Positions 55,014 through 60,556 of a stretch of 64,000 bases of DNA are shown here, in pieces. This DNA is from Dehalogenimonas sp. THU2 (lineage in GTDB: Bacteria > Chloroflexota > Dehalococcoidia > Dehalococcoidales > Dehalococcoidaceae), in the NCBI RefSeq assembly GCF_039749495.1, contig NZ_JBDLLU010000004.1, forward strand, positions 1 through 64,000, written 5' to 3'. The notes below the pieces were generated by a model. That model ran no database searches. It was given only the letters and a program-made list of their open reading frames with translations, and had not been told where the DNA came from. A program made the translations under genes and the position numbers. Position 1 is the stretch's first letter, and each line of letters opens with the position of its first letter.

Positions 55014-55047
55014 GAAAAAAAGAAAACCAGAAGACGATGCTTCCGGT
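55014..55047 (-). terminator. Riboswitch-controlled terminator
   Basis: On the minus strand ACCGGAAG pairs with CTTCTGGT around CATCGT, followed by TTTC and seven T. It lies between the TPP aptamer and the first gene, the expected expression platform. Confidence 0.7.
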
Positions 55048-55055
55048 CTAAGTTC

Positions 55056-55148
55056 TGCTACTTCCCTACACTCGCATTACCGAGACCAGGTTCCAAGGGT
55101 TGTCCCGCAATTCCGGGACTCTCAGCCTTTCAGCTCCCCCAGTAACGA
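55056..55148 (-). promoter_or_regulatory. TPP (THI-element) riboswitch
   Basis: The minus strand carries the conserved THI-box words: GGGGGAGCTGAAAGGCTGAGA, then CCCTTGGAACCTGGTCTCGG and TAATGCGAGTGTAGGGAAG. Spacing fits the aptamer P2-P5. TPP binding should favour the downstream terminator at 55014-55047 and so switch off the AIR-synthase-like and thiE genes when thiamine is plentiful. Confidence 0.93.
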
Positions 55149-55165
55149 TATTCAATTGTGGTTTA

Positions 55166-57057: not shown

Positions 57058-57330
57058 ATGGAAAGGGATTATTCAGGTAATATACTGACGGGCCTGCTCT
57101 TAGGTACGGCGATTGGCATCGGGCTGGGTTTGCTTTATGCGCCGAGGCCCGGTAGTGAAATAAGGGCCGGGTTGTACAAGCAGGCGCAGGAGGTCCTGAG
57201 CCAGGTGGCAGGGATCGGTGATACACTGATGGGACGCATGGATGATGTCGGTTGTACCGTTCGAGAATGTGGTAGAAGCATTCGTGTGGCGGTGAAAGGC
57301 GACGGTGCCGGCAGATTGCACCAGGCCTGA
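57058..57330 (+). CDS. YtxH-domain protein, copy 1
   Basis: 90 residues with an N-terminal glycine-rich membrane helix (GNILTGLLLGTAIGIGLGLLYAPRPG) typical of YtxH domains, then a short helical tail. Its C-terminal half has diverged from the two copies downstream (three cysteines or so; a VKGDGAGRLHQA end). GGAGGAAATG lies upstream. These proteins are membrane-anchored and often stress-related. Confidence 0.75.
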   Translation: MERDYSGNILTGLLLGTAIGIGLGLLYAPRPGSEIRAGLYKQAQEVLSQVAGIGDTLMGRMDDVGCTVRECGRSIRVAVKGDGAGRLHQA

Positions 57331-57377
57331 ACTTTTCGATTCAAGTCACAAGAAAAAGGGTTGGCAAAGGAGGAAAT

Positions 57378-57632
57378 ATGGATAGCGACAAGGCGGGCGG
57401 ACTCGCGGCCGGACTGTTGATCGGGGTTGCCGTAGGAGCGGGATTCGGCCTGTTATATGCTCCGAAGTCCGGACGCAAGACCCGTAAGGAAATTCAAAAA
57501 CAGGCGTTGGGCCTGAAAGAACATGCCGATGAGTTCATCAGTAACGTTAAAGAGCGGGACGCGGAGTTTTGTAAGGCCATCAGAGAAGGAACAGAAAACT
57601 ATCGCCGTGAGATGCTGGCGAAGATGAAGTGA
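57378..57632 (+). CDS. YtxH-domain protein, copy 2
   Basis: 84 residues: AAGLLIGVAVGAGFGLLYAPKSGRKTRKEI, then a coiled-coil-like tail ending MLAKMK. AAAGGAGG precedes the ATG. It is closely similar to copy 3 (the APxSGRKTR block). It lies in an operon of three tandem duplicates. Confidence 0.8.
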   Translation: MDSDKAGGLAAGLLIGVAVGAGFGLLYAPKSGRKTRKEIQKQALGLKEHADEFISNVKERDAEFCKAIREGTENYRREMLAKMK

Positions 57633-57680
57633 ATTCTGGAAATTTCGGGAAACAATAAATCGCAAAGGAGGAACCATCCA

Positions 57681-57935
57681 ATGAAAAAAGAGACTATGGG
57701 CGGTATGGTATTAGGTATCATGGCCGGGGCGGCTATTGGGATGGGAGTGGGTTTACTTTATGCCCCGCAATCCGGGCGTAAGACGCGGCGGGACATCGAA
57801 AAGCAGGCCCTCGAGATGAAAAAGCGGGCGGAGCATTTCAGTGAAACAGTGAAGGAGCGAGCTGAAGACATCGGCAGCACCGTCGCCGAAGGGACCGAAA
57901 AATACCGGCGCAAGGTGATGTCTAAAATTGGCTGA
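57681..57935 (+). CDS. YtxH-domain protein, copy 3
   Basis: 84 residues: GIMAGAAIGMGVGLLYAPQSGRKTRRDIEKQALE, with a helical tail (KERAEDIGSTVAEGTEKYRRKVM). AAAGGAGG precedes the ATG. A strong terminator follows at 57979. It is the last member of the triplicate. Confidence 0.8.
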   Translation: MKKETMGGMVLGIMAGAAIGMGVGLLYAPQSGRKTRRDIEKQALEMKKRAEHFSETVKERAEDIGSTVAEGTEKYRRKVMSKIG

Positions 57936-58620: not shown

Positions 58621-59022
58621 ATGGACATACCTACGCTGGTCAGCATCAATTTGGCAGTTCAAATCGGGTTGGTCGGCGTTATTTTATATGCAGCTTATCT
58701 AGCCAGGGAACGCCAACTTGATAAGCATTGTAAGATCATGAGATTCGCGATCATTGTGCAGATATTGACTATTGCCGTATTTATGGCACCTCGACTCATC
58801 GATCTGGCAGGCTTCCTGCCTATCGGTGGGCGGCCTGGCCTGGAGATGTGGGTGCATCATATACTTGGTTTGCTTGTAGTGGGTTTATGGATCTATATTA
58901 ACCTTGCGGTATCCGGTAAAATCAAGGTAAATGGCCGATTGATCGGCGTGATGCGGTTGGCGATGGTATCCTGGATAGCATCCCTCATTCTCGGATTTGA
59001 TATGTATCGCTTTCTCTGGTGA
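58621..59022 (+). CDS. Four-helix membrane protein (DUF420-like)
   Basis: 133 residues with four membrane segments: VSINLAVQIGLVGVILYAAYLA, FAIIVQILTIAVFMAP, HHILGLLVVGLWIYINLAV and LAMVSWIASLILGF. The paired histidines WVHHILG and the layout recall DUF420/YozB. GAGGAG precedes the ATG. It may be linked to respiratory assembly. Coupled to the next gene. Confidence 0.6.
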   Translation: MDIPTLVSINLAVQIGLVGVILYAAYLARERQLDKHCKIMRFAIIVQILTIAVFMAPRLIDLAGFLPIGGRPGLEMWVHHILGLLVVGLWIYINLAVSGKIKVNGRLIGVMRLAMVSWIASLILGFDMYRFLW

Positions 59023-59030
59023 TTGCTTGG

Positions 59031-59369
59031 ATGACAGATTTTCATAGTCGCCGGCGCCTGAGCCGCGAAGCCAGGACTATCAGGGTGATGATCGGTATGT
59101 ACTGCCGCGATCACCATAAGGCGCCGGATCTTTGTCGTTCCTGCCAGTCTTTGGCGGAGTACGCTTTGCAGCGCCTCGACAAATGCCCTTTCAGCGAAGG
59201 AAAAACTGTTTGTGCGTTATGCCCGGTTCACTGTTATAAACCGGAATCGAGAAAACAGATCCGGGATGTGATGCGCTACGCCGGACCCAGGATGATGTTA
59301 CACCATCCGATCATGGCAGCGATGCATATGTTCGACCGGCGACGGAAAAAACCATTGGCATCGGTCTAA
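59031..59369 (+). CDS. Nitrous oxide-stimulated promoter family protein (YgbA-like)
   Basis: I start it at ATG 59031; GTG 59019, overlapping the previous stop, is also possible. 112 residues with LSREARTIRVMIGMYCRDHH, LCRSCQSLAEYALQRLDKCPF and CALCPVHCYKPESRKQIRDVMRYAGPRM, the cysteine-rich blocks of the YgbA family. Probably a metal- or NO-responsive cytosolic protein. Confidence 0.85.
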   Translation: MTDFHSRRRLSREARTIRVMIGMYCRDHHKAPDLCRSCQSLAEYALQRLDKCPFSEGKTVCALCPVHCYKPESRKQIRDVMRYAGPRMMLHHPIMAAMHMFDRRRKKPLASV

Positions 59370-59987: not shown

Positions 59988-60509
59988 CTAGAGCAATCCC
60001 TCAGCCTGGCGCGGTTGCCCATCCCGTGTGAAAGTGATGCGTACCCGTGCGCCCTTCTCCAGTCCGGAGAGGGCCCGGTCGAGGTCAGCAGCGGTGTTTA
60101 CCGGTGCAGCATCTATTTTGGTTATGATGTCACCCGGTTTGAGACCGGCGACGGCCGCGGGGAGTCCCGGTTTTATCGAGCCGACATAAGCCCCGCGCAT
60201 CACCTTCAGACCGTGGGCGGCGGTGTATTTTTCGGCGTCGGCGACCGCAGCACCGAAAGAGGGTGCCGATGCAGCCTTTGCCTGGGAGAGATAATGTTCA
60301 AGCTGGCGCTGGTCGAAGCCGACCACCAGGTTGCCGTCGATCTCGGTCACCGGTACCGCCATGCGCCCGGTGCGTCGCGCAAGGTCCTGGGCGGCGGCGG
60401 CGTCCCGTGACACATCGACCTCGGTGAAAGGTATGCCCCGTTGTGAAAGGAACCCTTTCACTGTATTGCAGTGCGGTCAGGTCTGGGTGGTATATACGGT
60501 CACTTTCAT
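59988..60509 (-). CDS. Selenocysteine-containing glutaredoxin fused to a PDZ domain
   Basis: The frame opens at ATG 60509 (GAGGTG upstream): MKVTVYTTQT, then TGA (60479-60477), then PHCNTVKGFLSQRGIPFTEV. The TGA lies where glutaredoxins have the first Cys of CPxC, giving Sec-Pro-His-Cys. A hairpin directly downstream fits a bacterial SECIS. Residues 15-80 complete the glutaredoxin fold (DLARRTGRMAVPVTEIDG). Residues of about 90-173 are a PDZ domain (GLKPGDIITKIDAAPVNTAADL). With standard stops only the part from GTG 60461 would be called. Confidence 0.75.
60443..60461 (-). promoter_or_regulatory. SECIS-like hairpin after the in-frame TGA
   Basis: On the minus strand GTGAAAGG pairs perfectly with CCTTTCAC around the loop GTT. 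The loop starts 23 bases after TGA. Bacterial SECIS elements have a small loop with an early G, at about 16-37 bases from the TGA. Confidence 0.65.
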
Positions 60510-60528
60510 TGTTGACACCTCAGTTACC

Positions 60529-60556
60529 AGTATATCGCGGCTCTTCTTATAGTCAA
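60529..60556 (-). promoter_or_regulatory. Promoter of the glutaredoxin-PDZ gene
   Basis: Minus strand TTGACT (60551-60556), a 16-base spacer and TATACT (60529-60534), about 20 bases before ATG 60509. It supports a start at 60509 instead of after the TGA. Confidence 0.65.

Follow-up and report, generated by a model that had tools for sequence, protein, structure and literature searches.

Selenoprotein glutaredoxins are already known, as is a protein of another type in which a thioredoxin-fold domain containing selenocysteine (Sec) is combined with a PDZ domain (PMC13188914). Among the glutaredoxins is cGrx1 from Clostridium (Alkaliphilus) oremlandii (PDB 7c10), whose U/CPXC site natively contains Sec (PMC7642778). 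The 2026 catalogue of selenoproteins from prokaryotes lists Grx proteins with a UxxC motif and Trx7/PDZ proteins with a CxxU motif, but no Grx-PDZ fusion (PMC13188914).

The window, i.e., the entire stretch of 64,000 nucleotides from Dehalogenimonas sp. THU2 analyzed here, contains a locus that very probably encodes a 173-residue selenoprotein, which is the best explanation overall; the protein is likely a U-x-x-C oxidoreductase whose PDZ domain may serve for docking. For the redox part, the nearest glutaredoxin structure in Foldseek was cGrx1 (52% identity, TM score of 0.92 on target). Both proteins share the U(or C)PXC motif, with native Sec in cGrx1; however, cGrx1 is a single-domain protein without a PDZ domain and stems from a Clostridium. 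The top-scoring named family for the redox domain is YruB (TIGR02196), but its model spans only 74 residues. Uxx-star (NF041212) and the UXX-star families 1-3 also have a fold resembling that of glutaredoxins, with Sec in the first position, but the NF041212 model has no PDZ domain and the window protein scores below its cut-off. The Trx7/PDZ (seleno)protein (NF041199) likewise carries a Sec thioredoxin-fold domain and a PDZ domain in one chain, whereas its redox domain is of the Thioredoxin_7 type with a CxxU motif. HtrA, DegP, and DegQ have the PDZ fold in common with the window protein (residues about 97-170), which, however, has no protease domain. Neither a Grx-PDZ selenoprotein nor a glutaredoxin selenoprotein of Dehalogenimonas was found to be mentioned in the open-access literature. 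The fusion to a PDZ domain and its spread across the Chloroflexota are absent from the catalogues searched. The selenoprotein had been called unrecognised in an earlier note made from the sequence alone, and this description agrees with its absence from the 2026 catalogue and with a search of NCBIfam using the window protein, in which no model reached its cut-off.

The gene, its reading frame, and its domains

The features of the locus, all on the minus strand, are the following:

60529..60556, minus strand: promoter-like element with -35 TTGACT at 60556-60551, a 16-nt spacer, and -10 TATACT at 60534-60529 (direct reading)
60516..60521, minus strand: Shine-Dalgarno-like GAGGTG, with the ATG 6 nt downstream (direct reading; purine-rich equivalents in relatives)
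59988..60509, minus strand: predicted selenoprotein coding region, TGA codon 11 read as Sec (sequence and homologue comparison)
60477..60479, minus strand: predicted Sec codon TGA, residue 11, position 1 of U-P-H-C (aligned to Cys in homologues)
60468..60470, minus strand: predicted resolving Cys14 of U-P-H-C (invariant in a 32-row alignment)
60443..60461, minus strand: predicted bSECIS hairpin GTGAAAGG-GTT-CCTTTCAC, 8-bp stem, GTT loop at 60453-60451, within codons 17-23 (folding, comparison, covariation)
60285..60509, minus strand: glutaredoxin domain (YruB-like), residues 1-75 (Pfam, NCBIfam, structure match)
60000..60254, minus strand: PDZ domain, residues 86-170 (Pfam, Foldseek)

With the TGA read through, the frame extends from the ATG at 60509 to the stop ending at 59988 and comprises 173 residues plus the stop, of which 162 sense codons follow the TGA; with codon 11 as Sec, the protein starts with MKVTVYTTQTUPHC. 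The earlier note had proposed this start, the in-frame TGA at codon 11, and an open frame through a glutaredoxin and a PDZ domain, all of which match to the base. It had also claimed that a promoter and a ribosome site precede ATG 60509 and that gene calling would truncate the gene at GTG 60461, deleting the active site, and the sequence agrees with these claims as well. The -35/-10-like elements and GAGGTG are present, and a comparison by eye of 8 genus members showed that TATACT at -10 is retained upstream of the ATG, as is a ribosome site rich in purines. The ordinary ORF list contains precisely the truncated call at GTG 60461 (157 aa), which leaves out strand 1, the start of helix 1, and both active-site positions.

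Within the genus, codons 2-9, which precede the TGA, show only synonymous variation and no amino acid change, which argues that this region is translated. The first 16 residues are present in homologues as well. The in-frame TGA aligns with the Cys of homologues, and the search for Cys-containing versions with CPHC or a similar motif yielded CPYC, CGYC, and CPWC in this position. That the TGA at 60477-60479 is a sequencing error can be excluded because 7 more genomes of the genus and another 20 of the class have TGA as the corresponding codon.

Two Pfam domains were identified above their cut-offs, namely, PF00462 (Glutaredoxin; 64.3 bits, cut-off 22.9, residues 3-62) and PF13180 (PDZ_2; 58.8 bits, cut-off 27, residues 86-170). 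The best NCBIfam model was TIGR02196 (GlrX_YruB), with 87.5 bits just below the cut-off of 88.55, and a homologue reaches 91.2 bits. It was followed by Uxx_star NF041212 (54.8 bits, below the cut-off of 66; a Cys homologue reaches 68.0), and NF041199 (Trx7/PDZ) matched the PDZ part only, with 40.8 bits, below its cut-off of 300. The AlphaFold2 model (pLDDT 89) shows a full glutaredoxin fold and a PDZ domain, with residue 11 immediately preceding helix 12-23; given a pTM of 0.56, it is uncertain how the two domains are positioned relative to each other. In Foldseek searches, the PDZ part matched the PDZ domains of DegQ/DegP and HtrA. In classical glutaredoxins, a Gly-Gly motif binds glutathione. 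This position is occupied by VGF(D/N) in the alignment, which suggests an NrdH/YruB-type protein. With GF(D/N) replacing Gly-Gly, a glutathione-dependent activity of the predicted Sec glutaredoxin appears doubtful, and for the same reason a thioredoxin-reductase-like donor is no less likely than glutathione.

The hairpin downstream of the TGA codon

The 8-bp hairpin with a GTT loop that, according to the earlier note, starts 15 nt past the TGA at the spacing of bacterial SECIS (bSECIS) elements was confirmed in all respects. The published bSECIS model requires a loop of 3-9 nt with a G in its first two positions, a stem of 4-16 bp, a UGA-to-loop distance of 16-37 nt, and an MFE of at most -7.5 (PMC13188914, Fig. 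2). The window hairpin complies with this model, having a 3-nt GTT loop with G first, 8 bp, a distance of 23 nt, and -10.0 kcal/mol. This energy, determined for the 27-nt hairpin region, was equalled by only 0.4% of synonymous recodings (n=500).

Each of the 8 genus members has retained both hairpin and TGA, and so have another 20 TGA copies from the class. The hairpin was found in every TGA row of the class, whereas Cys rows either lack it or have it in a weakened form. Median energies in the class were -8.65 kcal/mol for the 28 TGA rows and -3.25 kcal/mol for the 18 Cys rows (Mann-Whitney p ~1.6e-8, kinship ignored), and the median fraction of equally stable synonymous recodings was 0.014 for TGA rows as compared to 0.365 for Cys rows. 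A single class row (G036) falls short of the G-in-loop and energy limits of the bSECIS model, as measured here. The medians in the phylum sample were -9.8 (13 TGA copies) and -5.0 (7 Cys copies). In this sample, folding energy alone does not separate TGA from Cys copies, since three of the latter (L197, L204, and L213) likewise reach -8 kcal/mol or less, using different registers.

Support for the stem also came from counting its pairs across the alignment. For the 23 distinct rows that share one register, 98.4% of the cells were paired and 11 had changed on both sides, a count that leans towards structure because it is restricted to these rows. None of 500 shuffles, which ignore kinship, reached either value, and controls with slid partners, in which kinship is kept, destroyed the signal, giving at most 72% paired cells and 1 double change. 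Left out of the count were two genus rows (G003 and G001) and three rows with a shifted register (G235, G215, and G144), for which the initial hairpin register failed and a 7-bp stem shifted by one was found instead. In the TGA rows, codon 17 (Val/Ala) covaries with codon 22 (mostly Ser) as GTG-TCA or GCG-TCG; the corresponding pairs in the three rows of shifted register are GTC-GAC or GCT-GGC.

Sec machinery, distribution, and gene neighbourhood

The search for selA, selB, selC, and selD that the earlier note had proposed showed that all four are present and linked in the same genome, in the order selC-selD-selA-selB, at 12559-17151 of contig C10. Their scores were 70.3 (selC), 354.9 (selD), 531.5 (selA), and 343.9 bits (selB), all above cut-off. 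SelD of this genome has one in-frame TGA, in SGUAAKI. The genome also encodes an FdnG-like formate dehydrogenase (G000:C2:139030-142029; L158) whose reading frame contains a single TGA. The gene cluster and Sec in SelD and the FdnG-like protein match what has been reported for Dehalogenimonas, namely, selCDAB and Sec in FdnG and SelD (PMC13390414, PMC4918011).

The TGA version was found in all 8 genomes sampled from the genus, the relatives being 69-80% identical to the window protein. Among the 47 Grx-PDZ fusions in the order and class samples, 28 have TGA, 18 have Cys (TGC/TGT), and 1 has Ser (TCA) at this site; of the loci read in the phylum sample, a further 13 have TGA and 7 have Cys. The Ser copy (L034; G013:C185:1589-2098) has an intact hairpin in a genome with selA and tRNA-Sec, and may reflect a base error, a change that occurred recently, or a variant that is functional with Ser. 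Several Dehalococcoidia contain glutaredoxin-only matches with an internal TGA (G005:C1:1643072-1643317, G144:C69:13027-13242, G215:C60:24189-24407, and others), which are probably further Sec glutaredoxins without PDZ domain. A search for related loci returned PDZ-only matches on genome contigs and distant glutaredoxins on viral contigs.

The Sec machinery was assessed by the presence of selA, selB, or a clear tRNA-Sec, defined as a match above 60 bits. At least one of them was detected in 28/28 TGA genomes, as compared to none in 5 of the 18 Cys genomes (Fisher p 0.006, a value that ignores relatedness and is uncorrected for MAG incompleteness); in the MAGs G032, G054, G079, and G080, only part of the sel set was detected. 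Weaker tRNA-Sec matches of ~48-53 bits, which probably correspond to other long-arm tRNAs, were obtained for genomes without selA and selB, including that of the probable Dehalococcoides. In this sister genus of the same family, neither a Grx-PDZ selenoprotein gene nor selA was found. A maximum-likelihood tree calculated with the Sec/Cys site hidden requires 5 Sec/Cys changes, or 6 if the Ser row is counted. One pair of supported sisters consists of G034, with TGA and selA, and G357, with Cys, a weakened hairpin, and a genome in which none of selA, selB, and a clear tRNA-Sec was clearly detected. None of the 4-5 phylogenetically independent contrasts runs in the wrong direction, and with so few of them a sign test is not significant.

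Conservation of the gene neighbourhood is limited to synteny at the genus level (GNAT, a small Cys-rich ORF, and YtxH-like ORFs), and a fixed partner gene was sought in the neighbourhoods of the genus and of distant loci but not found. In the window, the Cys-rich ORF is located at 59019-59369 and is kept near the selenoprotein gene in 7/8 genus genomes (tblastn). Three small YtxH-like ORFs lie in tandem at 57058-57935, and relatives of the third are also present near the selenoprotein gene of the other genus members. The window furthermore contains a TPP riboswitch (55046-55150, minus strand, 64.9 bits). A rhodanese-like ORF adjoins the Grx-PDZ gene in 5 distant Chloroflexota loci. On a plasmid of Ca. 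Chlorohelix allophototropha (NZ_CP128401.1, 255365-255910; L195), the glutaredoxin and PDZ domains are encoded by two adjacent genes, surrounded by rhodanese, TusA, DsrE-like, and trxB genes.

Alternative readings and possible function

Several other explanations of the locus were considered. A true start at GTG 60461, leaving the upstream region untranslated and yielding a 157-aa PDZ protein with a relic glutaredoxin, would correspond to the longest ordinary ORF, in which the remaining glutaredoxin and the PDZ domain still score. This is most improbable, given that codons before the TGA vary only synonymously, that promoter-like and ribosome sites are present at ATG 60509 and none are apparent at GTG 60461, that the active site would be lost, and that Cys homologues read the entire region without a stop. 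TGA differs from TGC and TGT by only one base and might have arisen by a recent nonsense mutation or an error in sequencing, which would make the gene a pseudogene or a misread Cys gene. However, 28 class assemblies and 13 additional ones from the phylum share this TGA, the frame is intact past it, and the hairpin is coupled to it; the comparison of class and phylum copies thus refutes this reading, to which we assign a negligible probability. Decoding of UGA as another residue, either by general recoding (Trp, Gly) or by near-cognate read-through, would give the same open frame but is highly improbable as well: the residue replaced is the catalytic Cys that homologues carry, and the TGA versions, which occur in genomes that have sel genes, are followed at bSECIS spacing by a hairpin that covaries.

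A different question is what the Sec residue does. As suggested for UXX-star, it might bind a metal or carry sulfur or selenium instead of reducing disulfides, and this is consistent with Uxx_star being the second-best model, with the rhodanese-like ORF at 5 loci, and with the sulfur-related surroundings of the split Ca. Chlorohelix homologue. We consider this unlikely, as the second Cys of U-x-x-C is invariant, as expected for a two-residue redox pair, and the closest glutaredoxin structure is the dithiol cGrx1.

For the selenoprotein reading, Sec insertion at UGA codon 11 is almost certain, judging from the sequence comparisons, and a function as thiol/selenol oxidoreductase is likely. SelB bound to the hairpin would insert Sec at the UGA, creating the U-P-H-C active site, in which Sec first and Cys second is the usual nucleophile/resolving pair. 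The selenolate would then attack a client disulfide (or a sulfenyl, persulfide, or selenenylsulfide group), Cys14 would resolve the mixed intermediate, and a donor would re-reduce the protein. The protein is probably cytoplasmic, since no signal peptide is apparent. The PDZ domain would most likely tether the redox module to partners via their C-terminal tails, a docking role that is slightly favored. The rhodanese, TusA, DsrE-like, and thioredoxin reductase neighbourhoods hint at persulfide or sulfur-relay clients, which is to be taken as a lead only.

On balance, it is moderately probable that these proteins form an uncatalogued Chloroflexota selenoprotein family in which the PDZ domain delivers a Sec glutaredoxin to its partners, with several Sec/Cys switches and Cys copies that have lost the hairpin. 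A pipeline that treats TGA as a stop would lose the active site of this gene in no fewer than 41 of the Chloroflexota genomes sampled. With its related Sec/Cys pairs, the family makes it possible to trace how the SECIS hairpin is lost. SelD and formate dehydrogenase are the only Sec proteins named in the accessible literature for Dehalogenimonas-like bacteria, and in these organohalide-respiring organisms an added redox protein may explain part of the need for selenium.
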